Virus record (IMG/VR): IMGVR_UViG_3300034198_011334
Location: 1-20,742 of that record
DNA: 20,742 nucleotides
DNA from: a virus
Strand: one strand, 5' to 3'
The notes under the pieces are model-generated. The model was not told where the DNA came from and searched no databases. It worked only from the letters and a program-made list of their open reading frames with translations. Shown here piece by piece: positions 50-20,597 of this stretch (position 1 is the stretch's first letter; each line of letters starts with the position of its first letter). A program made the translations under genes and the position numbers.

Positions 50-292
50 ATGCTTGAAGTAATATCAAACATAAAAATAAGGAAGGACAACACGATTGTT
101 CCAATTACAAGATATAAATTGACTTCGTTGCGACTTGATTTATACACATCAATCATTACAATAAAGGTGGAGTTTTACAGAGAAGATAAATACTTATTTC
201 ACAGAATATACGAAATGGGAAAAAGTGGGGCAGACACAGATGTAAATGACTTAATCAACCAAGTTCATAATAGAATAACAAATGAAAGTTAA
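50..292 (+). CDS. Small phage protein of unknown function
   Basis: This 80-residue protein is not recognised. It has alternating hydrophobic and charged residues suggestive of a small beta-rich fold (for example the stretch around residues 30-45) and no cysteines or membrane segment. It starts six bases after the T tract of the preceding terminator, and its stop overlaps the start of the fibre-like gene by 11 bases, so the two are probably translationally coupled. From its position it could be a small structural or assembly factor, but nothing in the sequence shows a function. Confidence 0.7.
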   Translation: MLEVISNIKIRKDNTIVPITRYKLTSLRLDLYTSIITIKVEFYREDKYLFHRIYEMGKSGADTDVNDLINQVHNRITNES

Positions 293-1904
293 ATCACTTT
301 TAACACAATATTTTCAAGGCGAACAAGTGTATAATTACGGGGGACAAGTCCCTGGTATATTATTTCCTGGTACATCACCTTCACCAACCCCATCTATAAC
401 ACCTACGAATACCCCTACGCCTTCTATTACACCAACTTACACAACCACCCCAACTCCTACAGACCCAAGAGCATGTAGAACATATGAAATTACAATAACA
501 GGCGGTGGTGGTTCATTATACACTTATGTAGATTGTAATGATGGACTAACTAAAAACTTATCAATACCACTATTTCCATATCCACCATTTAATTGGTGTG
601 CTAAACAAAATACAATTACCTATGTAAATGGTGCTGTTGTGGTAATAACGGATATTGGAACTTGTCCTTTACCAAGTCCAACGCCTACGAATACAACTAC
701 CCCTACAATCACGCCAACCAATACACCGACAACAACACCACCAATAGTTTATTCAGGTCAATTCTATACGGGTAATACCCAAAGTGATGCTTGTGCCACA
801 ACTGGTTCAACAACTACATTATACAGCTCACAACCATTCTTCACAAGCGGACAACAAGTATATTACCAATTACCCTTAACACCAACAAACTACATTCCAA
901 TAAACATATATTTGACTAGTGGGGGAACATCTTACATTTATGAATATTTGATGTTAAATCCAGGTTTAGTTGATTTGGGTGCTTGTCCTTCACCTACACC
1001 TACGAATACCCCAACGAATACGACTACACCGACAACTACACCTACACAAACGCCTACAATTACCCCTACACCATCTTCAACATCTTCACCAGCTGCCGAC
1101 CCTGATGCAACGGCTTACTTAAATGCTGTTGTTGCTGCGGGAGGTTCTGTAAGCTCAATCCAAAGTGGAGCAACATATAATTTGTTCGCTCAATTAAAGG
1201 CAAATGGTATTTACAACAAATTGCGTGTTTTCTACCCAATGCTAGGTGGAACTTACAATTCTATAAGAATTGAAGCTAAATTACAATCAGCATATTATTT
1301 AACCCAAAGTGCTGGATGGACTTATGGTTCAAGTGGGGCAACAACCACATCAAATACAACACATAGTTCTTACTTATCCACCAATTTTAGTGTATCTGGT
1401 AATTTAACAAGAGCAAACACTTCATTTAGTTTTTATTGGATAAATAACTATGGATATACACCAAGCAACGATAAATATTGGGCTGGAGCTTATACAGGAC
1501 AATATAATATGTGGGCTAATAATCCATATAGTCCAACTACTTGGCAAGTTATAGGATACTTAAATGGAAGTGATTTACAATCATTTGACCCTACCACAAT
1601 AGGTATAAATCCTAGTGCTGGTTGTTATTTCACTAATAATGAAATAAATACTGGTGGTGATTTTATCACATCACAAATAAATGGTATTCCAATTACACCA
1701 GCAAAAAGTATAAATGGTGGAAGTAATTTACCGAATGCTGATTTTTATTTAGGTAATTTATCATTAAATAATTCACCTTACCAGGGTATTCCAGGAACCT
1801 ATTGTTTCTTGCATCTTGGTGATGGTTTAACACAAATAGAACAGGGATATTTGGCAGCTATTGTAAATCAATATCAAGTTGATTGTGGTAGAAATGTTTA
1901 TTAA
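282..1904 (+). CDS. Modular Pro/Thr-linker fibre-like structural protein
   Basis: A 540-residue protein built of blocks. Residues 1-30 form a short head. Three Pro/Thr-rich linkers (about 31-62, 129-155 and 236-272) repeat motifs such as PTPTNTP. The linkers separate a four-cysteine module (Cys65, Cys85, Cys106, Cys128) from a second module (about 158-235, Cys171 and Cys235). Residues 273-540 are a Gly/Ser/Asn-rich beta domain opening with DPDATAYLNAVVAAGG, a type I recall from phage structural proteins, where it often carries virion surface or adhesion functions. Both cysteine modules have relatives in the tail proteins at 15761 and 18084. No signal peptide is seen. A surface fibre or decoration protein is the likeliest role, but the ligand is unknown. 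The start is the ATG overlapping the preceding gene. Confidence 0.75.
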   Translation: MKVKSLLTQYFQGEQVYNYGGQVPGILFPGTSPSPTPSITPTNTPTPSITPTYTTTPTPTDPRACRTYEITITGGGGSLYTYVDCNDGLTKNLSIPLFPYPPFNWCAKQNTITYVNGAVVVITDIGTCPLPSPTPTNTTTPTITPTNTPTTTPPIVYSGQFYTGNTQSDACATTGSTTTLYSSQPFFTSGQQVYYQLPLTPTNYIPINIYLTSGGTSYIYEYLMLNPGLVDLGACPSPTPTNTPTNTTTPTTTPTQTPTITPTPSSTSSPAADPDATAYLNAVVAAGGSVSSIQSGATYNLFAQLKANGIYNKLRVFYPMLGGTYNSIRIEAKLQSAYYLTQSAGWTYGSSGATTTSNTTHSSYLSTNFSVSGNLTRANTSFSFYWINNYGYTPSNDKYWAGAYTGQYNMWANNPYSPTTWQVIGYLNGSDLQSFDPTTIGINPSAGCYFTNNEINTGGDFITSQINGIPITPAKSINGGSNLPNADFYLGNLSLNNSPYQGIPGTYCFLHLGDGLTQIEQGYLAAIVNQYQVDCGRNVY

Positions 1905-2385: not shown

Positions 2386-3510
2386 ATGGACTTAAAAAAT
2401 AAACCAGAACCAAAGATACATTCGTTTAATATTGATTACTTAATCAATAGATTAGACACCCGTGAAAATAGGGAAGCAACCATTAGGTCAAAGCCTTGGG
2501 TATTATGGGGTGAAAAGAATGACTACCCACAATTCTTATTACAGGTGAAAGAACATTCCCCTGTTATGTCGGTATGTATTGATGCCAAAACCAATATGGC
2601 AATCGGTGAAGGTTGTGAAATTGAAGGGTTAGGAAATGTATTGGTAAATCGCTATGAAACAATCACGGAACTATATTACAAATTGTTCTATGATGTTTGG
2701 TTATTTGGTGGTTTCACCATAGAAGTAATACCTTCAAGGGACGGAAGTAGAATTGAAAGTATCTATCATATTCCTTTCCAAAATATCCGTATCGGTAAAG
2801 GTGAAGGAGACAAACACGATGAAGAATTGGATTGGTTCTATCACTGCGATGACTGGCAAAATCTAGGTCAAAACAGAGTTATTACCAAGTTTCACGGATT
2901 AGACCTTGAAAGAAGGGATGCGAGACAATTATACTATTGGAAGAATTATACCCCTACAACGAACAGACATTACCCTTTAACACCATATCAAAGTGGTATT
3001 GATGCTTGTGTATTAGAAGGTGAAATATTCCAATTCCACAAGACCAATTTAGCAGCATCACTAATGCCAAACTTATTCGTTAGTTTGATTGGAGACCCTA
3101 CCCCTGAAGAAAAGTTAGAAACTTATGAAGAATTGGTTAGGTCATATCAAGGTAAGAACGGACAAAAACTAATGTTGGCTTTCAGTAATTCAGCTGACGA
3201 AAGACCAGTCATAGAAGCCATTAGCAATAATGGTAATGATACATTCTATACGGAAGTATTGAATATGTGTATCCAAAGTATCCTTACGGCACAACAAGTG
3301 TCGTCCCCCTTATTGATTGGTATTCAAGGATTTAGTAGTAATCCATTCAGTCAAAATGCTGATGAATTACAAGTAGCTTGGAAGCATATGATGGAAATTG
3401 TAATTAAACCGATGATAAAGAAAGTAAATATGGGTCTTGAAGGTATTTTAGCGTTGAAGTATGATAGACCTGTTAAGATAATAAACAACCTTAAAACACC
3501 TGAACTATAA
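2386..3510 (+). CDS. Phage portal protein
   Basis: A 374-residue protein that would form the dodecameric ring at the capsid vertex through which DNA is packaged and to which the tail connects. The opening includes RSKPWVLWGEKNDYPQFLL (about residues 36-54), a hallmark as I recall of portal proteins in Bacteroidetes phages. It is followed by the crown-type alpha/beta region and a C-terminal helical stretch (SQNADELQVAWKHMMEIVIKPM) expected for the stem and wing. At 374 residues it is at the short end for portals. Its stop codon overlaps the start of the connector gene (TAATG), typical of coupled head genes. The assignment rests on family resemblance and position. Confidence 0.85.
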   Translation: MDLKNKPEPKIHSFNIDYLINRLDTRENREATIRSKPWVLWGEKNDYPQFLLQVKEHSPVMSVCIDAKTNMAIGEGCEIEGLGNVLVNRYETITELYYKLFYDVWLFGGFTIEVIPSRDGSRIESIYHIPFQNIRIGKGEGDKHDEELDWFYHCDDWQNLGQNRVITKFHGLDLERRDARQLYYWKNYTPTTNRHYPLTPYQSGIDACVLEGEIFQFHKTNLAASLMPNLFVSLIGDPTPEEKLETYEELVRSYQGKNGQKLMLAFSNSADERPVIEAISNNGNDTFYTEVLNMCIQSILTAQQVSSPLLIGIQGFSSNPFSQNADELQVAWKHMMEIVIKPMIKKVNMGLEGILALKYDRPVKIINNLKTPEL

Positions 3511-4073
3511 TGATGATTTATTGGATTGACGAAAGTTATGTTCGTGATAATTTACCTGTTGAATATTCCCTATTAAGTGGGAATATCTTACCAGCTTTAC
3601 AACAAGCTCATTTCATAAATGCTCGTGATATATTGGGTGATAGATTGTTTGATAAGATAAATGAACTTATCATCACGAATACTATGGACGACCCTGCTAA
3701 TGAAAGATTTAAGTTCTTGTTAGACCAGTATATGCAGAATGTGGTTCTTTACTGGACGCAGGTTTATTTGACTACCAACCTACTTGCAAAGTATGCAAAC
3801 AGAGGGGTGCAAAGTGAAAGTGGTGAGTTCAGCACCAACGCTGATTTAAGTGTTTGGAGAACCCTTAAGAACGAGTTTAGTGATTTGGCGACATATTATT
3901 CCCAACGTGCTAATGATTGGTTATTTTGGAACCAGAACTTCTATGTTCCATATTACACATATATGGTTGCTAATGGTCTTCAACCTGCTAATCCCCGTGA
4001 GAAGTTTAGAAATGGTGGAGTAGTATTAGGAGCTAGAAGAAGATTTAGCTGGAACAATCAATGCTGCTACTAA
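3510..4073 (+). CDS. DUF6712-like head-tail connector protein
   Basis: A 187-residue protein matching the pattern of DUF6712-type proteins of Bacteroidetes phages: an N-terminal line (ILPALQQAHFINARDILGDRLFDKI) followed by helices with many Tyr and Trp residues. Proteins of this kind follow the portal and are thought to act as head completion or adaptor proteins. Two ATGs (3510 and 3513) open the frame; the first overlaps the portal stop. The last residues, SWNNQCCY, precede a stop that overlaps the stop of the convergent HNH gene by four bases. Because a homing-type gene now sits directly after it, the original C-terminus could have been altered, but no proof of this is visible. Confidence 0.75.
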   Translation: MMIYWIDESYVRDNLPVEYSLLSGNILPALQQAHFINARDILGDRLFDKINELIITNTMDDPANERFKFLLDQYMQNVVLYWTQVYLTTNLLAKYANRGVQSESGEFSTNADLSVWRTLKNEFSDLATYYSQRANDWLFWNQNFYVPYYTYMVANGLQPANPREKFRNGGVVLGARRRFSWNNQCCY

Positions 4074-4570
4074 TTTAACCAACCCCAAGATTTACCTTTT
4101 TTAATACCATAGATTGCTCCTGTAGTTGTTGAAAAGTCCTTGGCTATATCAATACACCTTTCACCAGTAGATAATCGTTTCTTGATGGTTTTAACATCGT
4201 TTTCAGTCAATTTAGATTTACCATTACCACTTCCTTTTTGCGGTTTATGTAATCCTGTCTTATTTGCGTGTTTTATATTTTCTTCTTGATTTACCCATTC
4301 CAAATTGGAATAATGATTATTTGTTTTACAACCATCAATATGATTGATATTAGGTAAGTTATTTGGATTAGGAATAAAAGCCATAGCAACTAAACGATGT
4401 AGTCGTATAGTTTGTCTATCTGTCCTTGAATAAAAAAATGAAAATGCATAGTATCCATTATTCAACACTTTTGATAAATGCTTACCAGTATTATCATTTC
4501 TAATATTACCAAAATTACTAATTGAATAATTTGGGTGATTTTGTATTTGTTTCCACACTTCTTTTTCCAT
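4070..4570 (-). CDS. HNH homing endonuclease (NUMOD4-HNH-HTH)
   Basis: A 166-residue DNA endonuclease of the mobile HNH type. An N-terminal NUMOD4 motif (residues 4-24, VWKQI...YSISNFGNIRN) is followed by the HNH core: His58 in LHRLVA, Asn76-His77 in INHIDG, and Asn85 and Asn89 leading into LEW. A C-terminal helix-turn-helix (about 121-162: LTENDV, IAKDF, then IKKGKSW) would bind DNA. I chose the ATG at 4570 rather than upstream codons because the protein then begins MEKEVWKQI at the domain edge and a promoter ends four bases earlier. It is the only minus-strand gene. It is free-standing, convergent with the connector gene, and fits exactly between two + strand genes, as expected for a homing insertion. 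Confidence 0.9.
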   Translation of the reverse strand: MEKEVWKQIQNHPNYSISNFGNIRNDNTGKHLSKVLNNGYYAFSFFYSRTDRQTIRLHRLVAMAFIPNPNNLPNINHIDGCKTNNHYSNLEWVNQEENIKHANKTGLHKPQKGSGNGKSKLTENDVKTIKKRLSTGERCIDIAKDFSTTTGAIYGIKKGKSWGWLN

Positions 4571-4574
4571 ACTA

Positions 4575-4604
4575 CAAAGATAGATATTTATTATTATATT
4601 ACAA
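4575..4604 (-). promoter_or_regulatory. Bacteroidetes-type promoter for HNH gene
   Basis: Read on the minus strand, TTG (4604-4602) is followed by 19 bases and then TATCTTTG (4582-4575), a full match to the Bacteroidetes -33/-7 consensus TTG-N19-TAnnTTTG. Only four bases separate it from the ATG at 4570, so the transcript should be leaderless or nearly so. Confidence 0.7.
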
Positions 4605-4609
4605 AACAA

Positions 4610-4813
4610 ATGTATCTACCAATATACAATAGGGGTGAAAGCACCGCAGGTTATGTATCACGTTGTTCTAGCACAAGTGATATGATTAAAAATATCAGTA
4701 GCAATCAAGTTAGGGTTGCAATCTGTAGGGAGCACGTAGAACAAATTAGAAGTGCTATGAAACAACCCTTCAGTCAAGAAGAACCTAAAAGAAAATTAGG
4801 TCAAAAAAAATAG
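4610..4813 (+). CDS. Small basic head-region protein, unknown
   Basis: A 67-residue protein starting at the ATG at 4610. Upstream codons in the same frame are antisense to the HNH gene and its promoter, so the longer frame is unlikely. The body (AGYVSRCSSTSDMIKNISSNQVRV...) contains a central Ile/Val stretch and a helical region, and the tail is very basic (KRKLGQKK). I do not recognise it. If the HNH gene is removed, it would follow the connector stop almost directly, suggesting it belongs to the head operon. No Shine-Dalgarno site is visible; the region before it is A-rich, as is common in Bacteroidetes. Confidence 0.6.
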   Translation: MYLPIYNRGESTAGYVSRCSSTSDMIKNISSNQVRVAICREHVEQIRSAMKQPFSQEEPKRKLGQKK

Positions 4814-4823
4814 TTTCATTCTA

Positions 4824-4853
4824 TTGAGTTTTTCGTTTTTTACAATATATTTA
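4824..4853 (+). promoter_or_regulatory. TTG-N19-TATATTTA promoter for ncRNA candidate
   Basis: TTG at 4824-4826, a 19-base spacer and TATATTTA at 4846-4853 give a near-consensus Bacteroidetes promoter in which the last base of TAnnTTTG is A. The identical arrangement occurs at 5323-5352. No open frame follows for over 250 bases, so it probably drives an untranslated RNA or a long leader. Confidence 0.5.
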
Positions 4854-4885
4854 TTATTGTATCTAAATCATATTGCAGTTTATAG

Positions 4886-4922
4886 TGCCGACACCTTTAA
4901 CGGATATGAGCCGAAGATAGTA
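4886..4922 (+). repeat. Imperfect direct repeat, copy 1
   Basis: TGCCGACACCTTT (4886-4898) and, after 15 bases, AAGATAGTA (4914-4922) recur in the same order 161 and 155 bases downstream. The 13-mer and 9-mer are exact in both copies while the spacer between them differs, suggesting a duplicated block or a functional paired element at both ends of the candidate RNA. Confidence 0.7.
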
Positions 4923-5017
4923 ATAACCATAATGGGACTATGGTGAAGCAATGTCGTTAAACGCTTCTAAACTTTAATTCACAAGATTATTGGAACGGAC
5001 AACTAAATTATTGAATT

Positions 5018-5063
5018 GGTTTCGGTTCTTTTTGGGGGCTTTTTCTTGCCGACACCTTTTTTT
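5018..5063 (+). terminator. Possible terminator ending the ncRNA candidate
   Basis: GGTTTCGGT at 5018-5026 can pair with GCCGACACC at 5048-5056 (one U-C mismatch, one G-U pair) around a 21-base loop, followed by seven T residues (5057-5063). The large loop makes it weaker than the other terminators in the window. Confidence 0.45.
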
Positions 5064-7065: not shown

Positions 7066-7314
7066 ATGAAAGTAATAGAAACAAATATGAACGATGGGAT
7101 TGATTTAATCCACGAATGGTCTTCAGTTGAAGAAGCACTTAAAAGCGGAAGATTTGATTATGTATATCAAATGTGGTGTGATGAATATGATGATGAAATG
7201 GAAGAATATGATATTAAAAATGAAGATGACCTATTCAACTTCTTTAGAAAAGAATGTGATGGTGTTGAAGATTTTATTGAAAAAATATCTTACCCATTTT
7301 ATTTGGCAGAATAA
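7066..7314 (+). CDS. Small, strongly acidic protein
   Basis: An 82-residue protein with about 24 Asp/Glu and seven Lys/Arg residues (for example EYDDEMEEYDIKNEDD). I chose the ATG at 7066 because a promoter ends four bases upstream; the longer frame from 7021 would overlap the promoter and the T tract. I do not recognise a family. Its extreme acidity and its own host-type promoter in an accessory island recall DNA-mimic or anti-restriction proteins, but there is no sequence evidence for that role beyond charge and context. Confidence 0.65.
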   Translation: MKVIETNMNDGIDLIHEWSSVEEALKSGRFDYVYQMWCDEYDDEMEEYDIKNEDDLFNFFRKECDGVEDFIEKISYPFYLAE

Positions 7315-7333
7315 AATATTATTCATAACTTTG
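7303..7333 (+). promoter_or_regulatory. Bacteroidetes-type promoter for the 7359 gene
   Basis: TTG at 7303-7305, a 20-base spacer and TAACTTTG at 7326-7333, a full consensus match. The -33 element lies inside the final Leu-Ala codons of the 7066 gene, within TTTGGCAG (7302-7309). The start site is about 25 bases upstream of the ATG. Confidence 0.8.
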
Positions 7334-7358
7334 TAAAACAATTAAAAACACACACACT

Positions 7359-7940
7359 ATGGAAAACATTAAAAAACTTTACATCAAAGAAAACGGAACA
7401 CCAATTTACACCCACTACAACGGAAGCTGGAATGTTATGAAAATGGAAACCACCGATGGTTTGGACTATTCTTATAGCATTAGTGAAATGATTGACGATA
7501 GTTTGTATCAATACGAAGAAGAAAATGGTGAATTGAATGGTGATGACTACGACCAATTTGTTGCAAATGAATTAGAATACATTGCTGAATGTTGTGGTTG
7601 GGAATTGGTAAGGGCTGATTGGTTTTTGCAAAAAGAAAGTCAGTTGAACTACCTACATGCAGAAATGATGAATACTAATTGTGTATGTGATTACATCTTC
7701 AACGGAGCAGAAAAACCACACTTCACAAAGATTTGGCAACAAGTAAGCGAAGGAAACAATCGTTATACTATGGAAGAAATACACAAAATTATCTATGAAT
7801 ATAATAATACTACAGAGTTCGCATTCATTATGGATTTGGATAAAAAGTTTTATGATAAGGTAGAGAAGATGAAAGCGAATGTAGAAACTAATGATACTGA
7901 AAAACTTTGGGATATTTTTCTAAATAATTTGGCAGATTAA
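7359..7940 (+). CDS. Acidic protein of unknown function
   Basis: A 193-residue acidic protein with several Tyr and Trp residues (for example YEEENGELNGDDYDQF near residue 55, and ECCGWELVRADWF near 85-97). Cysteines cluster in the middle (ECCGW and NCVCDY), without a clear zinc pattern. No domain is recognised. Being acidic and separately promoted in the island between TerS and TerL, it may be an early accessory or counter-defence protein, but this is inference. Its gene ends in the same Leu-Ala-Asp/stop context that carries the next promoter. Confidence 0.7.
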   Translation: MENIKKLYIKENGTPIYTHYNGSWNVMKMETTDGLDYSYSISEMIDDSLYQYEEENGELNGDDYDQFVANELEYIAECCGWELVRADWFLQKESQLNYLHAEMMNTNCVCDYIFNGAEKPHFTKIWQQVSEGNNRYTMEEIHKIIYEYNNTTEFAFIMDLDKKFYDKVEKMKANVETNDTEKLWDIFLNNLAD

Positions 7941-7959
7941 AATAAAAGACATACCTTTG
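7929..7959 (+). promoter_or_regulatory. Bacteroidetes-type promoter for the 8004 gene
   Basis: TTG at 7929-7931, a 20-base spacer and TACCTTTG at 7952-7959, a full consensus match. It resembles the 7303 promoter closely: both contain TTTGGCAGA at -33 and share CTTTGTAAAACAATT across and after the -7 element. A TATATTTA box (7991-7998) lies further down, five bases before the ATG. Confidence 0.8.
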
Positions 7960-8003
7960 TAAAACAATTTACAATATAACCAAAGTTTAATATATTTATA
8001 GAT

Positions 8004-8513
8004 ATGGGAACAAAAGCAACATTTAAGATTTACAACGATGGTAAGTTCGTTATTGGTTCGTGGATTAAATACGATGGGGGTGTAAGTGAAACATCTGTAT
8101 TCCCCAACTTCTTGAAGAACCTGAAATATGACTTGGATAAGAAATCATTTTACGACTATATCAACAAGTTCGTAAATGATGGTAAGTTCGGTAGTATGTT
8201 TGGTGATAAGAAAAAACCTTTCATCAACCAAATCAACGATGAAGGTATGACTAGTCCTGATGTGTTATTTTGGGATACTTCTATGAGTGATAAGAAGTTG
8301 ATGGAAAATTACATTTGGGGTGAATATACTTACGAAGTTCGTTTTACCAAAAAAGTAATCAACATCAAGATAAACTATAATGGAGCTGAAAAAGTATTTT
8401 ATATGAAGAGGGATTTTGGGACTGGTTCTATTATTGGAACTATCAACGAAGTTCAAGATTGGGTAGATGATATTGAATACGGATTAAACGATTGTGATTG
8501 TAAAGAACATTAA
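8004..8513 (+). CDS. Protein of unknown function
   Basis: A 169-residue protein starting MGTKATFKIYNDGKFVIGSW, with a beta-rich N-terminal third. An alpha/beta middle follows (about 45-110, KKSFYDYINKFVNDGKFGSMFGDKK), then a C-terminal acidic helix ending CDCKEH. I recognise no family with confidence; the opening resembles small phage proteins with conserved (A/S)TxKxY beta strands. It begins the 8004-8901 unit and is transcribed from the promoter at 7929. Confidence 0.7.
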   Translation: MGTKATFKIYNDGKFVIGSWIKYDGGVSETSVFPNFLKNLKYDLDKKSFYDYINKFVNDGKFGSMFGDKKKPFINQINDEGMTSPDVLFWDTSMSDKKLMENYIWGEYTYEVRFTKKVINIKINYNGAEKVFYMKRDFGTGSIIGTINEVQDWVDDIEYGLNDCDCKEH

Positions 8514-8538
8514 ACTTAAAATATAAAAAAACAAAACT

Positions 8539-8901
8539 ATGATTGGCGCTTGGAAACTTACACCCGAAGATGTGGTGGAAATCAAAAACTTGTTCGCAAC
8601 GACGAACTTATCAAATCAGGAAATTGCTGACCAGTATGGTGTAGCAAGGGAACACATTAGTCATATCCGTTTGGGTAGAAGATGGAACACAGAAAACCAT
8701 TCGTTTCTTATGAAGGAAGAAATAGAAAAAAAGAAACCAGAAAACTTTATCATTTTACATATTTTAGATGTAGAGACCTGTGAAGTAATTACGGCAATCC
8801 ATTTATCACCTGATAAACTTGTAGCTCTAAATGATTACATTACAGAATGTTATATCAACGAAAGCGGAGGAATGACTTTAATTTTAGAAATCTTCGCATA
8901 G
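8539..8901 (+). CDS. HTH protein related to homing-nuclease DNA-binding domain
   Basis: A 120-residue protein. Residues 7-49 form a helix-turn-helix (LTPEDV, IKNLFATTNLSNQEIADQYGV, ISHIRLGRRW) that matches the C-terminal HTH of the HNH endonuclease at 4070-4570 in order and key residues: LTxxDV, IK, IA, I-x2-I and G-x2-W. Residues 70-120 are a separate alpha/beta domain with no nuclease motif. It is likely a DNA-binding regulator or a former homing-endonuclease module put to another use. It sits 25 bases after the 8004 gene with no promoter of its own. Confidence 0.75.
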   Translation: MIGAWKLTPEDVVEIKNLFATTNLSNQEIADQYGVAREHISHIRLGRRWNTENHSFLMKEEIEKKKPENFIILHILDVETCEVITAIHLSPDKLVALNDYITECYINESGGMTLILEIFA

Positions 8902-8905
8902 TCAG

Positions 8906-8936
8906 TTGATTATATTGTAAAACTAAACTATATTTG
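8906..8936 (+). promoter_or_regulatory. Bacteroidetes-type promoter for the 8953 gene
   Basis: TTG at 8906-8908, a 20-base spacer and TATATTTG at 8929-8936, a full match to the consensus. The ATG used (8953) lies 16 bases later; an ATG four bases earlier (8949) hits a stop after three codons. Confidence 0.8.
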
Positions 8937-8952
8937 TAAAAGAAAACGATGA

Positions 8953-9465
8953 ATGGATAGGAAAGCTTCATTTAATAATGATGGGAGATTTGATATTAAA
9001 ACCGAACCAAAGTTCTTAAATGGGACGATGATGGAACTTCTTTCTTGGGATATACTTTCACAACCCGATATGACTTTTGAGGTTAAAAGTGAAAACAAGA
9101 ATAAGTGGGGATTGACTGGAAATGTTTTTATTGAGTTCCAACAACTAAAAGGAAACGAATGGGTGGCAAGTGGAATATCAATAACCGAAAGTGATTATTG
9201 GGTTATTGTCTTAAAAGATTATGATAATGAAAAAATTGAAAGCATAATCATCACCCCAACCCACAACTTAAAGAAACGAATTAAAAGGTTGTATAGAGCT
9301 GGTAAAATAAGTATTGAAGGAAAACCCAAGACGAAAGATGGAACAGCAACAAAAGGTTATATCGTCCCAATCCAACATCTTTTTCTATACGATACGGAGT
9401 TTGAGGAAGACAGAAATATTAGAGTAAAAAAAGCATTAGAAGACAAAAAAACTAAAAACAAATAA
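8953..9465 (+). CDS. PD-(D/E)XK nuclease-like protein
   Basis: A 170-residue protein with the active-site pattern of the PD-(D/E)XK nuclease superfamily. It has Asp39 in QPDMTFEVK, Glu43-x-Lys45, then TGN (55-57) leading to Glu61 in VFIEF, and SGIS (73-76) with Asp81 in ITESDYW. Proteins with this EVK...TGN(V/I)xIE(Y/F)...SGI...(S/A)DY order occur in many phages and may cut DNA, either in recombination or nucleotide recycling. The C-terminal half is basic with many Lys residues. It starts a two-gene unit with its own promoter. Activity is inferred from motifs only. Confidence 0.7.
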   Translation: MDRKASFNNDGRFDIKTEPKFLNGTMMELLSWDILSQPDMTFEVKSENKNKWGLTGNVFIEFQQLKGNEWVASGISITESDYWVIVLKDYDNEKIESIIITPTHNLKKRIKRLYRAGKISIEGKPKTKDGTATKGYIVPIQHLFLYDTEFEEDRNIRVKKALEDKKTKNK

Positions 9466-9467
9466 TA

Positions 9468-9674: not shown

Positions 9675-9724
9675 AGATATACCAAGTAGAAAGGTAAATG
9701 GTTCATATTTGGTTGTTTGCTAAT

Positions 9725-9759: not shown

Positions 9760-9771
9760 ACAACATAAACC

Positions 9772-9818: not shown

Positions 9819-9834
9819 GTGGGACATTTTCGGT

Positions 9835-11011: not shown

Positions 11012-11893
11012 ATGATAGATTTAAGATTAGGGGATTGTTTTGATTTGATAAAAGAACTACCCGATAATTCAGTTGATTTGGTAATAACATCACCACCATA
11101 TTCCAATATCTTATCTTATGGTAAGAATGTATCAATTAAAAAACCTGATGAATATGTGGATTGGATACTACCATTATTTACAGAAATACATAGGGTATTA
11201 AAACCATCTGGTTCTTTTATATTGAATATAAATGATAATTGTGAAAACGGATACAGAAGCACTTATGTCTTTGATTTGATTTCAAGGAACAATAAAGAAA
11301 CCCCATTAAAGTTATATGATGTTTTGACTTGGTATAAAAAAAATGGATTACCGAATGGAAGTAGAAAAAGATTTAGAAACCAAACTGAATATCTATTTCA
11401 TTTTTGTAAGGACGCTAAACAGATGAAGTTTTATATGGATAGGGTATTAGAAGAACCAACAGAAACCACAAAAAAAAGATATGAAACCCCCAAGTATAAT
11501 AGTCAGGGTGAAGTGATTGATGGGGTTAGGAATAGAAAGAAAGAAGTATGGGTTAGAAGAACAAGTATGAAGGTTGATGAAAATGGTGTTAAAGACCCAG
11601 ATTTAGTTAGAAGGGAAGTCCCTGAATTAGTCCGTCCTGATAATGTGTTTAGGTTTCCAACAGCATCAGCATCAAGGGATAATGAAGTAAGACATCCAGC
11701 ACCATTCCATAAAGATTTACCCACATATTTTATCAACTTACTAACAGACGAAGGGGATACTATCCTTGATGTATTTTCGGGAATTGGAACTACTGGATTA
11801 GGTTGTGTGAATAGAAACTACATAGGGTTTGAGTTAAACCCAGTTTATTTAGAATATAGTAAAAAAAGATTAGATTATGAAAAAGACATCTAG
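11012..11893 (+). CDS. Orphan beta-class DNA methyltransferase
   Basis: A 293-residue S-adenosylmethionine-dependent DNA methyltransferase. The catalytic motif IV is TSPPYSN (26-32) and the SAM-binding motif I, DVFSGIGTTG (253-262), follows near the C-terminus with FEL (273-275). Motif IV before motif I with an intervening target-recognition region marks the beta class. The Ser-Pro-Pro-Tyr form is more typical of N4-cytosine enzymes than adenine ones, but the base is not certain. No restriction endonuclease is nearby, so it is an orphan. It starts one base after TerL and likely protects phage DNA from host restriction or marks it during packaging. Confidence 0.9.
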   Translation: MIDLRLGDCFDLIKELPDNSVDLVITSPPYSNILSYGKNVSIKKPDEYVDWILPLFTEIHRVLKPSGSFILNINDNCENGYRSTYVFDLISRNNKETPLKLYDVLTWYKKNGLPNGSRKRFRNQTEYLFHFCKDAKQMKFYMDRVLEEPTETTKKRYETPKYNSQGEVIDGVRNRKKEVWVRRTSMKVDENGVKDPDLVRREVPELVRPDNVFRFPTASASRDNEVRHPAPFHKDLPTYFINLLTDEGDTILDVFSGIGTTGLGCVNRNYIGFELNPVYLEYSKKRLDYEKDI

Positions 11894-12773: not shown

Positions 12774-12934
12774 TTGATTTTTATTACCAATCTTTAATGA
12801 TGTGCGCTCAAGACGATATACTAAAAGTAAATCCAATTCTTAAACTTGATTTGTATGAAGTATTGGGGTATTTATCATATAGGTTAGACAAAGCACACAA
12901 AGAAAACCAAAGAAACCAAAAAGCAATCCAATAA
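12644..12934 (+). CDS. -1 frameshift extension of tail chaperone (GT-like)
   Basis: About 96 residues in the -1 frame following the T10 run, with no stop until 12932-12934. The sequence includes a charged linker (DREAEKRRSKTKDTTPEEV) and a folded-looking end (MCAQDDILKVNPILKLDLYEVL, then YLSYRLDKAHKEN). The fused product would be roughly 259 residues, counting about 163 zero-frame residues. The continuous open frame of this length across the zero-frame stop, and the direct stop-start overlap with the next gene, are what a G/GT pair predicts. Confidence 0.75.
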   Translation, partial: FRNFRDQTYRSFPIIYGDEADREAEKRRSKTKDTTPEEVKQSVVDFYYQSLMMCAQDDILKVNPILKLDLYEVLGYLSYRLDKAHKENQRNQKAIQ

Positions 12935-15018
12935 TGACTATAAAAGATTTTATTAAACTATTCGCCTACTTTACGGCACAACACCCAATCTTAAGAACAT
13001 TTAGTTGGGGTAATTTGGCGGATTATTCCCGTGATGATTATATCACAGAATACCCTGCGATGCACGTTGTTCCCCAACCATCGCTAGTTGAAAGAACATA
13101 TGCGAACTTCAACTTCACAATTCTATTCTATGACTTGTTAAATGAATATGTAGATGGAGACCCAATCAGGTCAAACCAATTAGATAGTATGGGTCTTACC
13201 GAAACTATCTTAAATGACTTCTATGCATTCTTTACCAATCAACTTACGAACTATGGTTTCTTTCTAACTACAAGTGTGAATTACACCCCTTTCGTTGATA
13301 GGTTCAAGGAAGATGTATGTGGTGTTGAAGCAGTCATTACAATCACCGCAGAACAAACTGCTTGTATTCCCCCATTTGTAAATGAAAATGGTTTCTTGTT
13401 ATATGAAAATGGGAACACGATGACTAGTGAAGATTGTGAAGTGGTTAGTTATGCTTCCCCTTCTTGTCCTAATGAAACCATCGGTCAATTACCAATCTTT
13501 ACAGGTGATTACACAGGGGGTTGGGTTGTGTTTAATAATTCAGGTAATACAATAACTTACAGAATAAATGTAGATGACCTTAAAGGTAATTCAGGAAGTT
13601 CAGGAACAAGTGGAACATCAGGCAGTTCAGGAACTTCTGGTATAGATGGGACTTCGGGCTCATCAGGAACAAGTGGGTCTTCTGGCACATCTGGAAGTGG
13701 GGGCACTAGTGGCTCATCAGGAACTTCGGGCTCAAGTGGAACATCGGGGACTTCTGGTAGTTCAGGGACTTCGGGCGTTTCAGGTTCGTCTGGAACTTCG
13801 GGCTCAAGTGGCACATCGGGAAGTTCAGGCACAAGTGGAACAAATGGTTCAAGCGGAACTAGTGGGTCATCAGGAACTAGCGGTAGTTCAGGAACAAGTG
13901 GTTCTAGTGGAACAAGTGGCACATCAGGAACTAATGGTAGTTCGGGGACTTCAGGTAGTTCTGGTGTTTCAGGTTCTTCTGGAACTTCGGGCTCAAGTGG
14001 GACTTCTGGTAGTTCAGGGACTTCGGGTAGTTCTGGTGTTTCAGGTTCGTCTGGAACTTCGGGCTCAAGTGGAACATCGGGAACTGGTGTATCGGGAACA
14101 GATGGTTCATCAGGTAGTTCAGGAACTAGTGGTAGTTCGGGAACGAGTGGAACAGGTATTTCGGGAAGTTCAGGAACATCAGGTTCAAGTGGAGCTTCAG
14201 GTAGTTCGGGAACTTCGGGCTCATCAGGAATTAGTGGTTCATCTGGCACATCAGGAACTAATGGTAGTTCGGGAACATCGGGAAGTAGTGGAACAAGTGG
14301 GTCATCAGGAACTTCGGGAACGAATGGTTCAAGTGGAACATCAGGAACTTCGGGAACGAATGGTTCAAGTGGAACATCAGGAACTAGTGGCGGAACAGGT
14401 AGTTCAGGAACATCGGGAAGTAGTGGAACAAGTGGAATAAACGGAATAAACGCAAATGCTGGTGGCGGTGGTGGAACTAGAATTGCCCCACCAACAAGTT
14501 CTTGGATTACAACTACTTTAATAAGTGGTGTTTCAAGTTTGGTGGCTTCATTAGGTTTTACTACGAATATTATTTATTTATTACCATATGTTCCACAAAG
14601 GTCTTTTTCATATACGGGTTTGAGTATAAATGTTGTTGGTAATGTCGCTTCTACGAATATTAAAATACTTGTTTATGATGACTTAAATGGATTACCAAAC
14701 AATAACATAATAACTTCAAGTTCATTATCAAAAGCAACTACAGGATTAAAAACTTATTCTGTATCAGGGACTTTTAGTGCAGGAACGCAATATTGGTTTG
14801 GTGTAATAAACGATACATCAACGGGAACAATAACAGCTACACCAAATACAACAATACAAACAGCATTTCCATTTTTAATTGCATCACCAACAACAACGAC
14901 ACAATCATTTACATATAATTCATCTTTCGCATCACCAGCATCATCAATAACCGCATCTAGTATAACACAAGGAACTAGTGCATCATCACTACAATTTCTT
15001 ATTTATATCAACCAATAA
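12934..15018 (+). CDS. Tail-terminator-like protein fused to collagen-like repeats
   Basis: A 694-residue fusion. Residues 1-150 match my recollection of a tail-terminator or tail-completion protein of Bacteroidetes phages (HPILRTFSWG...YPAMHVVPQP, then ...CGVEAVITITAEQTACIPPF). Residues 150-217 form a short linker domain. From 218 to about 506 every third residue is Gly, in about 96 Gly-X-Y triplets, mostly Gly-Thr-Ser and Gly-Ser-Ser. Residues 507-694 are a Thr/Ser-rich beta domain expected to be surface exposed. Such a triple-helix-like stalk could lift the C-terminal domain from the tail, giving a fibre for host contact. Proline is nearly absent from the triplets, unlike animal collagen. 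The gene overlaps the chaperone extension by one base. Confidence 0.8.
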   Translation: MTIKDFIKLFAYFTAQHPILRTFSWGNLADYSRDDYITEYPAMHVVPQPSLVERTYANFNFTILFYDLLNEYVDGDPIRSNQLDSMGLTETILNDFYAFFTNQLTNYGFFLTTSVNYTPFVDRFKEDVCGVEAVITITAEQTACIPPFVNENGFLLYENGNTMTSEDCEVVSYASPSCPNETIGQLPIFTGDYTGGWVVFNNSGNTITYRINVDDLKGNSGSSGTSGTSGSSGTSGIDGTSGSSGTSGSSGTSGSGGTSGSSGTSGSSGTSGTSGSSGTSGVSGSSGTSGSSGTSGSSGTSGTNGSSGTSGSSGTSGSSGTSGSSGTSGTSGTNGSSGTSGSSGVSGSSGTSGSSGTSGSSGTSGSSGVSGSSGTSGSSGTSGTGVSGTDGSSGSSGTSGSSGTSGTGISGSSGTSGSSGASGSSGTSGSSGISGSSGTSGTNGSSGTSGSSGTSGSSGTSGTNGSSGTSGTSGTNGSSGTSGTSGGTGSSGTSGSSGTSGINGINANAGGGGGTRIAPPTSSWITTTLISGVSSLVASLGFTTNIIYLLPYVPQRSFSYTGLSINVVGNVASTNIKILVYDDLNGLPNNNIITSSSLSKATTGLKTYSVSGTFSAGTQYWFGVINDTSTGTITATPNTTIQTAFPFLIASPTTTTQSFTYNSSFASPASSITASSITQGTSASSLQFLIYINQ
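13585..14451 (+). repeat. Gly-X-Y coding repeat array
   Basis: About 96 codon triplets encoding Gly-X-Y, with a nine-base unit of the type GGAACTTCG/GGCTCAAGT in many synonymous forms. The DNA also leaves long open frames on the reverse strand (13557-14249) and in a shifted + frame (13646-14440), which are by-products of the repeat. The array should vary in length between relatives by slippage or recombination. Confidence 0.9.
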
Positions 15019-15191: not shown

Positions 15192-15761
15192 ATGGAAGAA
15201 GAACTACTAAATCTTATTGGTAAGTTTTTGGTTGAAGCAATTAGAAAGCAAATAATGAGCCCCGAAGCTCGTTTTACAAAAAGGGGTAATTCACCAAAAC
15301 GACCACCAAGATATAATTTCTATGCTAGTGGTTCATTATACAATTCTGTATCTTATATTATTAGAGATGGGGAGATTGATATTCTAATGAACGACTATGG
15401 GGTTGATTTTGTGTTTGGAGAAGGTAGTTGGCCTGGTGGTGGAAGATACTATCCCGACACAAGAAGAAAGGGAACAAAGGGGAAGACATCACCTTTAATC
15501 GCAGCATTAGAAAAGTGGGCTAAAGACAAATTACATCTTCCCCAAGCTCAAGCAAAAAGCATGGCATTTGCCACAAGAAAGAACTTATTTAAGGCTGGAT
15601 ACAAGGGTTATAGATTATTTAATGATAAGTTCCAAGAAAAAATAAATAACTACATTAGTCAGTTATTAGAACAGCCACAATACCAAGAAGCAGTATTAGG
15701 TGATATATTTGACCGAATAAATATTTTTGGAAATCAACAATACCAAATAGCAATATCATAA
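15192..15761 (+). CDS. Tail-completion or neck-type protein
   Basis: A 189-residue basic protein with an N-terminal helix (EEELLNLIGKFLVEAIRKQI) and a GlyAsn/Pro loop with many Arg (KRGNSPKRPPRYNFYASGSL). A WPGGGRYYPDTRRKGTKGKTS stretch follows near residues 79-99, and a Lys-rich middle helix. The form recalls HK97 gp10-type neck or tail-completion proteins, in which a basic surface loop joins the tail terminator; I cannot prove that. It ends in TAATG with the following tail gene, as in coupled tail operons. Alternatives are a minor tail assembly factor. Confidence 0.55.
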   Translation: MEEELLNLIGKFLVEAIRKQIMSPEARFTKRGNSPKRPPRYNFYASGSLYNSVSYIIRDGEIDILMNDYGVDFVFGEGSWPGGGRYYPDTRRKGTKGKTSPLIAALEKWAKDKLHLPQAQAKSMAFATRKNLFKAGYKGYRLFNDKFQEKINNYISQLLEQPQYQEAVLGDIFDRINIFGNQQYQIAIS

Positions 15762-18082
15762 TGATTACATTTTTATCACAACCAGATATTATACAACCAG
15801 TTTATTCTAACTTGGTTTTTCAGTTCCAATCAACAGCGGCAACTGACCCCACAATTTACAAGTATAGATATGTGGTAAATGTCTTTACACAAGACGGACA
15901 AATCACACAACTTAATATCACCCCTTCAACACAAGGTTGGGGACAGGTTGATTTATCCCAAATCTTATTAAACTATACATCATCAAAACCTGTGAATATC
16001 GGTTGTTCTGGTGATACACCAATCCATCAAGCCAAATGGGGATATTTGGAAAACAATATGATTGTCTATGATATTATAGTTGGGGAAGAATATGCGACAA
16101 CCGCTAATGGTGTTGTATCCCAATATAATGGTTATGGAGCTGCTGGTTCCCCTGCCGTTCGTTCTAAAGTATGTTATGCAACGAATGGTGTGAAGGAATG
16201 GTTCAACGGGAAATCCTATGATTTTGAGCCATATTATCTAACAGGACAGACAGGGACATTCCCCCAATATACTTCAAGATTTTTAACAGGTAGTCCAAGA
16301 ACAAGATATATTCGTGATACGGATAATGCCTTACTGGCATCATTAAATTGGTATAACGCTACTGGTTATATCGCTAATGGTGTGTGGGGGACAACATCTT
16401 ATACTGATGGATACTTACCATCAAAAAGGGTTCATTCGGCTTTATTCACTTTCTATGACGAACAAGATAATGAAATAGGAACAGGAAGAACTTACAATAT
16501 TAAGACAAATTGTGGAACACAAGAAAATTGTGCCACATTAGATTTTCAAGAACCACTAACATCAAATTGGGCTGAAAAACAAATTATCTATGTCGGCACA
16601 GGTGTTCCAAACATAGAGGAAAATGGTATATCAGTTCCAGCAACTACGAAATACTATAAGGTGGAATTAGAAAGCCACGACCCAAGTAATCAACCTTTAC
16701 CACCAGACCCTAATTTAACAGCATTTACAGATTGTAGTTGTTTTAGATATAACTATGAAAATACTGGTTTAGCACCAGTAGTTCTTGAATACTATGATTG
16801 TGATGGGGTATATCAAACATTTAATATTGACCCAAGTTCTGTCGCTGATTGGTGTGCTTGCCAAAACAGCAATCTAATAAATGGTAATGCATTTGACCCT
16901 AACTTGCTTCAAGTGGAAGCTTGTGATAGTTGTGTTTGCACCACTTATGATTTGATAAATAGCGACCCCGATTTTTCATACACTTATTCTTATCAAAATT
17001 GTAGTGGAAATACCATTACTGGTTCGGTTTTACCTGACGATACTTTAAGGGTTTGTGCTTGTTATGGTTCAGTTGTGGCTCCTGATTTAACGATAGATGA
17101 AGTAGGGACTTGTCCTTTACCATTTGTTCCAAACTGCCAAGAAATTGCAGTATCCACATTTGTTCTATATCCATTAGACATCACTTATACTGGTTGTTGT
17201 GGAAATGAACTAACAATCACAATCCCACCATTCACATCGGTAGTATTGTGTGCTAATTATCCTTTCCCTACTTCTGTATTATGGGAATGGTCTGTTCTTA
17301 CAACTTGCACCCAACCAGTTTGTCCTACACCGACACCCACACCTACACCTGTTCCATTACCATCAGGTCAATCGTTCATCGGTAGAAATGTTTGCACGGG
17401 TGATATAATGTATTTCAGTTATTCAGGTAATCCAATATCTATCGGTCAATATGTAAATTACATCAACGAAGTTTATGAAATCACAGCATTAGGTGGGGGT
17501 GGATTTATTCAGTTGGTTTCGCCTTGGATATTTGATACTGAAGCAAGTGCTTTAGCTATGTTCCCTTGTTATTCAGCAACCACAGGAACTTGTTTAAGTA
17601 ATGTTGTTGTGAGCGAACCATTCTATTATTATTTTAATGAAGATTGTTCGCCAGGTAATCGTGTTGTTTTCTGGCTTGGAAAGTTTGGCACTTGGGAAAG
17701 CTACAATTTTACAGAAAGGGAAGATGTGGGTTATTCAGTTGAAAAACAAATAATACAAAAATCACCTGAACTATATTCAGCTGGTTGGGATACACCATCT
17801 TATCAAGGGTGGAATAGTAAGCGTGATGTATGGTCGCAAAAGGTCGCACAATCAGGTATTCTTTATACGGACTTCTTACCACAAGCAGAAAGCATTTGGT
17901 TGTCCCAAGAAATCACACAATCCCCATCTGTTTATTTGGTTCAAGATAATGGTGTGTTATTACCAATCACAATTACCAATACAGAAGTGGCACAACCGAA
18001 CTATCAAATCAACAATAACAAATACCAATTCCAAATAGAATATAAAGCGGCTTACGATACAATAAGACAAAATCACGAATAA
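15761..18082 (+). CDS. Large tail protein with tandem cysteine modules
   Basis: A 773-residue protein. Residues 1-305 and 620-773 look like two halves of a core tail protein (for example IYKYRYVVNVFT near 32-43, and FWLGKFGTWESYNFTERED near 637-655, typical as I recall of Bacteroidetes phage tail proteins). Between them lie three tandem four-cysteine modules (Cys327/347/365/388, Cys393/414/432/451 and Cys459/480/497/516). A PTPTPTPTP linker (522-530) then leads to a second module type (535-603). The insertion fits a surface position. The modules resemble those of the protein at 282-1904. It overlaps the previous gene by one base and precedes the large tail gene at 18084 by one base. The core function, perhaps in the distal tail or baseplate, is not certain. 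Confidence 0.7.
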   Translation: MITFLSQPDIIQPVYSNLVFQFQSTAATDPTIYKYRYVVNVFTQDGQITQLNITPSTQGWGQVDLSQILLNYTSSKPVNIGCSGDTPIHQAKWGYLENNMIVYDIIVGEEYATTANGVVSQYNGYGAAGSPAVRSKVCYATNGVKEWFNGKSYDFEPYYLTGQTGTFPQYTSRFLTGSPRTRYIRDTDNALLASLNWYNATGYIANGVWGTTSYTDGYLPSKRVHSALFTFYDEQDNEIGTGRTYNIKTNCGTQENCATLDFQEPLTSNWAEKQIIYVGTGVPNIEENGISVPATTKYYKVELESHDPSNQPLPPDPNLTAFTDCSCFRYNYENTGLAPVVLEYYDCDGVYQTFNIDPSSVADWCACQNSNLINGNAFDPNLLQVEACDSCVCTTYDLINSDPDFSYTYSYQNCSGNTITGSVLPDDTLRVCACYGSVVAPDLTIDEVGTCPLPFVPNCQEIAVSTFVLYPLDITYTGCCGNELTITIPPFTSVVLCANYPFPTSVLWEWSVLTTCTQPVCPTPTPTPTPVPLPSGQSFIGRNVCTGDIMYFSYSGNPISIGQYVNYINEVYEITALGGGGFIQLVSPWIFDTEASALAMFPCYSATTGTCLSNVVVSEPFYYYFNEDCSPGNRVVFWLGKFGTWESYNFTEREDVGYSVEKQIIQKSPELYSAGWDTPSYQGWNSKRDVWSQKVAQSGILYTDFLPQAESIWLSQEITQSPSVYLVQDNGVLLPITITNTEVAQPNYQINNNKYQFQIEYKAAYDTIRQNHE
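16739..17308 (+). other. Three tandem cysteine-module coding units
   Basis: These bases encode residues 327-516 of the tail protein: three consecutive modules of about 60 residues, each with Cys, then Cys (usually in a Cys-x-Gly or CysGly context), then Cys-Ala, then Cys. The spacings are 20/18/23, 21/18/19 and 21/17/19 residues. The module at residues 65-128 of the protein at 282-1904 has spacings 20/21/22. Disulphides or metal binding are both conceivable. Confidence 0.7.
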
Positions 18083-18083: not shown

Positions 18084-20597
18084 ATGGTAGAATTATGGTT
18101 AAAATCCAACACGACTGATGTATGGGAAAATATAGATGTGGGTGCTGATTTAACAATCGGCATCACAAAGTCATATGAAGAAATTGAAGATTTCCAAACA
18201 AAGAAATCAACATATTCTAAAACCTTTACAATCCCCCGAACAGCAAAGAATAATCAGTTTTTTGCATCATCATTTCAGGTGAATAGTGCAGGATTTGAGA
18301 ATGATATTGTTGTTCCCGCAGTTGTTAAATATGGTGGGGCTGATGTCTTTAATGGTTCGTGTAGATTAAACAAAGTAATCACTTCATTAAACGGGGGATA
18401 TTTTGAGGTATTCTTAACACAGATTTTACCTGACTTCGCTAATAGTATTCAAGATGTTAAACTAATTGAATTAGATTATTCAGGTTTAACACATACATTA
18501 AACTACGATACATTAGTATCCACTTGGGCTTATTCTGGTGGGTCATACAACGACTATCCAGACATCGTTGGTAAGATAGTATATCCGTTAGGATTTTATG
18601 GTTATAGCGACACAGATTATTATAGTCCTTTCAACACATCATCAACAGGTTTTACATCATCACAATACCCATTAGCCGTAGGTCAATTCGCGCCTTGGGT
18701 TTCAGCAAAATATCTTATAGATAAAATATTTGATAGAGCTGGTTATTCATATACCAGTTCGTTCTTTAATAGTGAATATTTCGCAGGGATATTTTGTCTA
18801 GCTAAAACCAATAATACACAAGGGGCAACCAAAGTAAGTGCGGCAACACAGAACGAAAATATATTTGAGGTTTCACAGGGAAGACCCACCTATATTGATA
18901 CTGATGACGACAACTATAATATAAACTATAACAAGTCATTTATATTTCAACAAGTAATCAACAACCCGTTAAATGTATTCACAAGAGCAACCAGTTTCTT
19001 AAATAGACAAAACTATTTCACTACTGCTGTTGCAGGAAAATATCAATTCAAGATTGGATTTACCTTACAATTAAGGGACAATTATTTACCAGTAACTTAT
19101 CTAAATATAGCCATAAAAGATATTGATAATGGAACAATATACAGAGAAATACAAGGTATAGCAATTCTTCAAGGACAACCTACAGAGTTCAAGGACATTT
19201 ATATGAACGCCACAATACCTGCTGGTAGAAGGGTGGCTTTATGTTATTCAAGACAATTAGGTGGTGGAGACCCACACGCTCAAATCTTAATAAGTGCTGC
19301 AAATTGGAAATTATATGCTTCCCCAATTTTATCGGCAGATAGAAAAGTTTTATTACAAGACAATCTACCTAATGAAATGTATTGCCTTGAGTTTTTTAAG
19401 GGGATTGTAGATACTTTTAATCTTGTGGTAATACCTAAAGGTCAGGACGAACTTTTGGTTGAAAGATGGGAAGATTATTTTGCTGGTGGTGATGATTTGG
19501 ATTGGAGCCAGAAACTTGATTTATCCACAGATTATCTAATTGAACCTACGAACAATTTAACCAAAGAATACATCTTGAAATACAAAGATAGTAGTGATAG
19601 ATATTCCCTAATAAATCAACAAAGAAGAAATCAACAATTTGGAACTTTAAGGAACATATCATCAGCACAATTCCAAACAGGGAAAAAAATTATTGAAGTT
19701 CCATTTGAGCCCCTACCGATAAGTGTATTTGATGGGGAAACCCCGAGCACCATTTTAGTTCCACATATCTATACTTGGAACCAGGGCGCAAGTAGTAATA
19801 CCGCACAATATACACCATTAGGTTCTAACATTAGATTAGGTTTCTATAATGGATTATTAGATAGTAAAATTACAGGAACAACAACCCCCTATTATATTCT
19901 ATCAGGAACATCAGGAATAAGTCATACAACATATGCGGCAATATCCCATTTAAGTTCTTATGAATATTCCCCATCAATATTTAGCGACCTGAACTTCCAA
20001 AATCAGTATGATTACTGGCAACCGATGAACGACAGCTATATTGGATTTACGAATAATGATATTTTTAATAACTTTTGGAGGACAAGGGTGGAGCAATTAT
20101 ATGCAAGTGATGTAAAATTATTCACGGGGACATTTAAGCTCACCCCAACTGAAATAAACAACATATCTTTCAACGATAATGTATATTTCTTAAATGCATG
20201 GTGGAGGTTATTATCTATGACTGATGCTGATATTACAGACATCAGTAAGGTTGAATGTAAGTTTATCAAATTACCATATATCACAGCAGCATCAATACCA
20301 CTTATACCCCCAACTTACAAACAGGCTCCATTCGTTCCAACCCCTACACCGAGTTCGGCACCATACCAGTATGTTGTATTTTCAAGTCAAAATATTGGGG
20401 AAATGTGTAATGAAACAGCAGGACAGATTGTGGTGTGGTCTAATTGTAGTCCAACATTATCTGCTGGTTGTTCTGTATTCCAAGATAGTGCGGCAACAAC
20501 CCCGTATAGTGAAGGCACTTTAATTAAACAGACGGGTAATAATACTATTTATCAAGTAATAGAATATGGTATAATAACCATATTTACAGAATGTTAA
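18084..20597 (+). CDS. Large tail protein with C-terminal cysteine module
   Basis: An 837-residue protein. The N-terminal region includes YSKTFTIPRTAKNNQFF (44-60), a pattern I recall in Bacteroidetes phage tail proteins probably forming a tail hub or distal-tail component. The middle is a long alpha/beta region with a helical patch (IDKIFDRAGYSYTSSFF near 207-223). Residues about 742-760 form a Pro/Thr linker (PTPTPSSAP), and 761-837 form a cysteine module related to those at 158-235 of the 282 gene and 535-603 of the 15761 gene, ending in Cys. The linker-module end may be a later addition. The gene precedes the tape measure gene by ten bases. Confidence 0.7.
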   Translation: MVELWLKSNTTDVWENIDVGADLTIGITKSYEEIEDFQTKKSTYSKTFTIPRTAKNNQFFASSFQVNSAGFENDIVVPAVVKYGGADVFNGSCRLNKVITSLNGGYFEVFLTQILPDFANSIQDVKLIELDYSGLTHTLNYDTLVSTWAYSGGSYNDYPDIVGKIVYPLGFYGYSDTDYYSPFNTSSTGFTSSQYPLAVGQFAPWVSAKYLIDKIFDRAGYSYTSSFFNSEYFAGIFCLAKTNNTQGATKVSAATQNENIFEVSQGRPTYIDTDDDNYNINYNKSFIFQQVINNPLNVFTRATSFLNRQNYFTTAVAGKYQFKIGFTLQLRDNYLPVTYLNIAIKDIDNGTIYREIQGIAILQGQPTEFKDIYMNATIPAGRRVALCYSRQLGGGDPHAQILISAANWKLYASPILSADRKVLLQDNLPNEMYCLEFFKGIVDTFNLVVIPKGQDELLVERWEDYFAGGDDLDWSQKLDLSTDYLIEPTNNLTKEYILKYKDSSDRYSLINQQRRNQQFGTLRNISSAQFQTGKKIIEVPFEPLPISVFDGETPSTILVPHIYTWNQGASSNTAQYTPLGSNIRLGFYNGLLDSKITGTTTPYYILSGTSGISHTTYAAISHLSSYEYSPSIFSDLNFQNQYDYWQPMNDSYIGFTNNDIFNNFWRTRVEQLYASDVKLFTGTFKLTPTEINNISFNDNVYFLNAWWRLLSMTDADITDISKVECKFIKLPYITAASIPLIPPTYKQAPFVPTPTPSSAPYQYVVFSSQNIGEMCNETAGQIVVWSNCSPTLSAGCSVFQDSAATTPYSEGTLIKQTGNNTIYQVIEYGIITIFTEC

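Follow-up and report, generated by a model that had tools for sequence, protein, structure and literature searches.

The four-cysteine module examined here, which we call type A, recurs on several structural genes of a small tailed phage and its relatives, where it behaves as an exchangeable cassette. The phage is represented by a 20,742-base sequence (IMG/VR record IMGVR_UViG_3300034198_011334). This whole stretch is referred to as the window, and genes are named by their first position in it. Type A is carried by five kinds of anchor gene: 282, 15761, 18084-type, 12934-type and 1915-type. We read the modules as cassettes displayed on the phage particle for adhesion and put the probability of this reading at about 0.7. 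It is built on the homology of the modules, their switching between anchor genes, breakpoints in the Pro/Thr linkers that join them and the pairing of their cysteines, all read from sequence. The parts of the carrier genes described below lie on the plus strand. The L-numbered relatives used for comparison are metagenome contigs, and the sole exception among the relatives is P12024S.

The original prediction placed type A once in gene 282 and three times in tandem in gene 15761, with the fragment GTCPLP identical in both and PTPTP linkers in 282, 15761 and 18084, and all of this was confirmed. The cysteines lie at residues 65, 85, 106 (CA) and 128 of the 282 protein and at 327/347/365(CA)/388, 393/414/432(CA)/451 and 459/479/497(CA)/516 of the 15761 protein. 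Shuffling the 15761 protein produced the four-Cys pattern 0.007 times per shuffle on average, and none of 2000 shuffles of the 282 protein had it. Outside the family, it occurred once in 1914 open reading frames (ORFs) of related contigs, in an antisense ORF. A hidden Markov model (HMM) made from the 15761-family modules alone matched residues 64-129 of the 282 protein at an independent E-value (i-E) of 1.5e-6, and it also matched two tandem copies in the 282-type protein of another phage, L030. Profile-profile comparison with hhalign gave a probability of 98.3% for the 15761 and 282 modules and less than 5% for unrelated Cys-containing modules of the same proteins; hhalign E-values are calculated per single comparison and are hence optimistic. 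The resemblance goes beyond Cys and Pro/Thr composition, and on these profile comparisons the type A modules of 282 and 15761 are homologous. Scans of the three proteins against Pfam (E up to 1), PHROGs and NCBIfam returned nothing for the modules and no immunoglobulin-like (Ig-like), PKD or BACON domain. When the type A profile was searched against PDB sequences, the top match was internalin J, with an unconvincing E of 0.026. Type A is an unnamed module family, now delimited by its sequence, the pairing of its cysteines and the fold predicted for it.

A survey of related phages found the modules on differing anchor genes in L011, L064, L108, L109 and L149, as expected if they form an exchangeable set. 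A 223-bp segment covering the 282 module and the end of its linker has 85.2% DNA identity to L011, and the module is 77% identical in protein. There, the 282-like module ends a tail-completion-like gene with homology to the 12934 start (E 3e-8) and the equivalent place in the gene order. L011 and the window are otherwise distant, with identities of 43% for the terminase, 30% for 12156 and 28% for the start of 15761. The 15761 homologue of L064 has retained both ends of the backbone and has no type A, and the only two type A matches of that genome are in the long tail of its 18084 homologue. L108 and L109 also have a type A module on the 18084 homologue. The 1915 homologue in the genome of L055 (contig L149) is 56% identical over the 148-residue anchor and then continues with Pro/Thr linkers, type A and the C-terminal domain of 282. 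Any single anchor change could be an assembly error; changes are seen in three independent contigs, with reading frames intact.

The modules had also been proposed to spread within the genome by recombination, and this part was not supported. In an intra-genome alignment, the modules of the window genome shared only short linker words in DNA. The 282 module has its nearest relative in a different phage, and the 15761 array is an old one, passed on by vertical descent. Since the modules of this genome have no DNA relation to each other beyond those words, the exchange that the data show runs between phages and not inside this genome, as far as sequence comparison goes.

The 282 gene is where this exchange is most visible in its parts. 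It starts with a 28-residue anchor (MKVKSLLTQYFQGEQVYNYGGQVPGILF, 282-365) that is 93-96% identical in many relatives with a differing remainder. The anchor is followed by Pro/Thr linker 1 (363-476), the type A module (residues 64-129; 471-668), delimited by HMM, AlphaFold2 model and the DNA identity to L011, Pro/Thr linker 2 (657-755), module B2 (residues 157-235; 750-986), delimited by profile comparisons, Pro/Thr linker 3 (981-1091) and a C-terminal domain (residues 275-540; 1104-1901). The three linkers were defined with a linker mask. Besides the 1915 homologue in L149, the C-terminal domain terminates the collagen-fibre gene in L059 and L063. Past the anchor, 282-type genes hold unlike cassettes, including Cys modules, WSAS-repeat domains, a glycine-rich domain (PF21722, Gly_rich_2) and the common C-terminal domain. 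When pairs of 282-type genes were compared, 45 of the 47 DNA blocks running from the start codon stopped within a Pro/Thr linker in both partners, a count that is supportive rather than exact because the pairs are non-independent and the linkers are of low complexity. The remaining two blocks were interrupted by a contig end. About 28% of the length of the compared genes is linker. On these alignments, 282-type genes are mosaics behind a conserved 28-residue start.

Some further observations concern this gene type. The 282-type genes of L035 (3197-4542) and L030 (2772-5024) are otherwise nearly identical, but 73 bp within a Pro/Thr linker are missing from L035, and the resulting frame shift removes every downstream module; linker slippage, phase switching or an assembly error are possible causes. 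The 282-type protein of L036 (10001-10798) has a bare Pro/Thr linker at its end and lacks a terminal module. Pfam and PDB sequence searches with the C-terminal domain of 282 gave nothing convincing, and weak antibody matches in the PDB search were treated as chance.

The 15761 gene (15761-18082) has a different history. Its backbone (about residues 1-320 and 610-773) encloses type A modules 1 (16736-16927), 2 (16934-17116, which contains GTCPLP) and 3 (17132-17311), each supported by HMM, homologues and model. A short CPTPTPTPTPVPL linker (17321-17359), recognized by reading the sequence and comparing homologues, and module B1 (residues 535-603; 17363-17569) follow. Because every informative homologue has the three modules unchanged in place and order, and the copies at positions 1 and 3 fall into a single clade each on the module tree (support 99/98 and 100/99), the array is, on sequence comparison, old, fixed and vertically inherited. 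A Foldseek search with the full 15761 model gave no significant match since the backbone was poorly modelled (mean predicted local distance difference test score, pLDDT, of 45).

These results are consistent with the following mechanism. Accessory modules would be attached at a site at the end of, or within, certain structural genes (282, 1915 and 18084 here, and 12934-type genes in relatives). Each module would be a small domain of 60-80 residues, rich in beta structure, held together by disulphide staples and carried on flexible Pro/Thr linkers. The repetitive linkers would serve as recombination joints, where a cassette from another phage could replace a module on the same or a different anchor while the anchor is left undisturbed. 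The 15761 array would be the old, fixed part and the 282/1915 pair the fast-changing part. Displayed modules would most likely make contact with the host surface, or with polymers around it, weakly and in many copies before the true receptor is engaged. The surface location of the modules is plausible, and adhesion seems the best explanation of the sequence data; glycan binding by type A has no direct support. The only hint of glycan binding, by analogy, would be a BACON-like stretch at the C-terminal position of P12024S_45, an 18084 homologue, which at E 0.003 fell short of the Pfam cut-off and was also noted by the depositors; it serves as a precedent for display at this position.

Several points weigh against adhesive display. 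The modules match no known binding family or solved fold in Pfam, PDB sequence or Foldseek PDB searches. Their location on the particle is taken from gene position beside the tape measure, portal and terminase. In most relatives with the 15761 array, type A was found nowhere else. BLAST blocks can also extend into low-complexity linkers, which softens the breakpoint count given above. A broader proposal goes further and describes an open "display socket" system, in which pooled, linker-joined cassettes on several structural genes are hardened by disulphides only after exit from the reducing host cytoplasm and are swapped between genera through the linkers, by which the phages would remodel their surface. 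We regard this as tentative and rather doubtful.

It is unlikely that the modules are passive structural parts that stiffen, space or shield the tail or head without binding, with swaps that are neutral or driven by escape from particle recognition. Such a role would suit the 15761 array, fixed between two backbone halves, the absence of a matching binding family and the bare linker at the end of the L036 protein, but the rapid turnover of unrelated cassettes at the linkers and the co-occurring fibre-type parts (Gly_rich_2, PF21722, and collagen) fit adhesion better.

Cysteine co-variation, counted across 62 type A copies, bears on how the modules are held together. Cys1 and Cys2 are invariant. 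Cys3 and Cys4 are jointly missing in five copies, single loss of either was never seen and the losses map to at least two separate places on the module tree. An extra pair (the first Cys of CxC and the second Cys of CAC) is both present in 39 copies and both absent in 23, concordant in 62/62. Because the cysteines come and go in pairs, disulphides are preferred over metal binding. The pattern suggests bonds 1-2 and 3-4 plus an optional third, which would form after the protein leaves the reducing cytoplasm. Four nearly invariant cysteines per module could also be seen as a site for a metal such as zinc, but the four are not all indispensable: Cys3 and Cys4 are gone from 5/62 copies with Cys1 and Cys2 staying, the extra pair is gained or lost as a unit and loss of either pair would disable a metal site. 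We consider metal binding very improbable.

The AlphaFold2 model of the 282 type A module (pLDDT 83) is all beta with six strands, and its strand layout agrees with that of the confidently modelled 15761 copies. Foldseek with the type A model found no PDB match at E up to 0.001 (best fold E 0.43). It gave a probability of 1.00 for predicted proteins of other uncultured phages, though with modest E-values (2e-3 and above). One of these proteins is annotated as a TP901-1 major tail protein, and the match therefore hints, on modelled structure, at a further anchor gene of this type.

That the modules are alike by Cys and Pro/Thr composition only, or are old duplicates that stayed put, would agree with the absence of DNA similarity between them in this genome and with the single clades of 15761 copies 1 and 3, but it has next to no chance as a general account, being refuted for the 282 copy by the significant leave-out HMM match, by the profile-profile probability far above that of unrelated Cys modules and by DNA that is 85% identical in different genes of phages only distantly related, while it stands for the fixed 15761 array.

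The closest working parallel is provided by the 936 lactococcal siphophages, in which carbohydrate-binding modules (CBMs) are present on Dit, the major tail protein and the neck passage structure, and two of them bind host cells (PMC6669499). Those modules were portrayed as common "bricks" that are shuffled and give many-copy adhesion (PMC6669499). In both cases, one accessory module kind is found on several structural proteins within one phage group, since type A is also on at least two. The 936 modules have recognisable CBM or BppA folds, whereas type A has no known relative, is Cys-paired and is joined by long Pro/Thr linkers; homology to a CBM or BppA fold was not detected (no Pfam match; PDB sequence E 0.026; PDB fold E 0.43), and no carbohydrate-binding family matching type A was found. 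Other tailed phages have Ig-like, BACON and PKD decorations, including T4 Hoc and the modular adhesins of gut phages (PMC13370021, PMC10385173). These too are small beta domains on many structural genes in mixed combinations, with Bacteroidota phages included, but type A lacks a Pfam Ig or BACON match or a Foldseek PDB match and relies on paired cysteines.

A survey of phage proteins by Smug et al. 2023 (PMC10684548) found that proteins with no other relation to each other, neck passage and tail fibre proteins among them, have recently come to share homologous fragments. The L011 case is of this kind, with a homologous fragment above 50% identity on otherwise unrelated proteins. That study was a general survey, with linkers unmentioned in its main text, whereas here one module family is followed over five anchors with breakpoints in Pro/Thr linkers. 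Type A is a new, unnamed family that, by analogy, would work like the exchangeable adhesion decorations of 936 and Ig-like-domain phages. Secreted bacterial cellulases have Pro/Thr boxes between small binding domains. The likeness to them lies in the Pro/Thr linkers; they are cellular secreted enzymes and were compared by description only.

A second module type had been predicted in 282 (158-235), 15761 (535-603) and 18084 (761-837), and this was only partly right, as the 282 and 18084 copies (B2 and B3) are related and the 15761 copy (B1) is separate. Direct hhalign comparison of B2 and B3 was weak (29.5%). A profile of 282-type sequences only, with the bridging L152 and L153, reached the C-terminus of the 18084-type protein in L005 (i-E 3.9e-4), and one profile round later the B3 copy of the window was matched at i-E 2.4e-13. 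Judged by these profiles, B2 and B3 are one family. B1 was rejected as kin, with hhalign probabilities of 0.3% against the 282 type, 0.5% against the 18084 type and 2.8% against the merged set. Its model has strands followed by a C-terminal helix, and the shared SGQ start appears to be a coincidence, as far as the tests reach. B3 terminates the 18084 homologues in all close relatives examined, and related sequences terminate homologues in more distant phages; on this distribution, B3 is a standing part of 18084.

The 18084 gene (18084-20597) consists of a backbone (residues 1-750) and a C-terminal display position, where the homologues in L064, L108, L109 and L112 bear long module tails. In the window, this position has a VPTPTPSSAP linker (20334-20363) and B3 (residues 761-837; 20364-20594). 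In the 12934 gene, an N-terminal tail-completion-like anchor (12934-13503), whose counterpart bears type A in L011 and other modules in L112, is followed by collagen-like Gly-X-Y repeats (approximately 13570-14500; PF01391, E 1.6e-35), which mark it as a collagen-like fibre. The tail-completion-like domain and the long GSSGTSG collagen are in one gene in the window (12934-15018). The fusion is lineage-specific since L046, L050, L059 and L063 keep two separate neighbouring genes. The 1915 gene (1915-2361) is a bare 148-aa anchor in the window; in relatives, Pro/Thr linkers and modules are added and the protein reaches 848-930 aa.

Other modules were observed on these gene types. A Cys module of the YYYYIVCKC...DDCPEC type is present on the 18084-type gene of L064 (tail of 7145-10801) and the 282-type gene of L030 (residues 110-175 of 2772-5024), with hhalign probabilities of 84.7% singly and 90.7% as a family. 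The tail-completion-like gene of L112 (5121-6419) and the 282-type gene of L039 (3061-4809) may share a CPQ...NGTYDR module (hhalign 43%). In genome G408 (L111, L150), the contig ends split an 18084-type gene; the three type A modules found at the far end are probably the continuation of that gene in a circular genome.

The remainder of the genome was taken from a 29,082-base contig that is identical to the window across the overlap. The joined genome contains terminase, 12156, 12934, 15192, 15761, 18084, tape measure, a probable protease/scaffold, capsid, 282, 1915 and portal. Isolates with a related terminase are phages of Bacteroides, Parabacteroides and Flavobacterium (top identity about 32%), and Nonlabens phage P12024S encodes an 18084 homologue. 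Because these relatives belong to phages of such hosts, a Bacteroidota host is likely on sequence grounds. Relatives of 15761 and 282 were not found in the phage isolates searched. The type A module was not found in a search of 395 Bacteroidota genomes, and a genome scan with the 15761 family was likewise empty; a later search of phage records recovered the module in 13 of 14, which acts as the positive control.

Two neighbouring genes were also noted. An N6/N4 DNA methylase (PF01555, E 4e-42; 11012-11893) adjoins the terminase. L003, L011, L051 and L055 have differing methylase-like genes beside the terminase, so this position looks like another exchange spot. A NUMOD4-HNH type homing endonuclease (4070-4609, minus strand) lies directly past the head-tail connector gene, on the opposite strand.

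Annotation by module would be misleading in these phages, as the presence of type A gives no indication of which structural gene it sits on. The occurrence of one cassette kind on five anchor genes, with joints in the linkers, makes it testable how phages can append adhesion domains to their structural genes while assembly stays intact. It also makes testable whether virion proteins, synthesized under the reducing conditions of the cytoplasm, acquire disulphide staples once outside.

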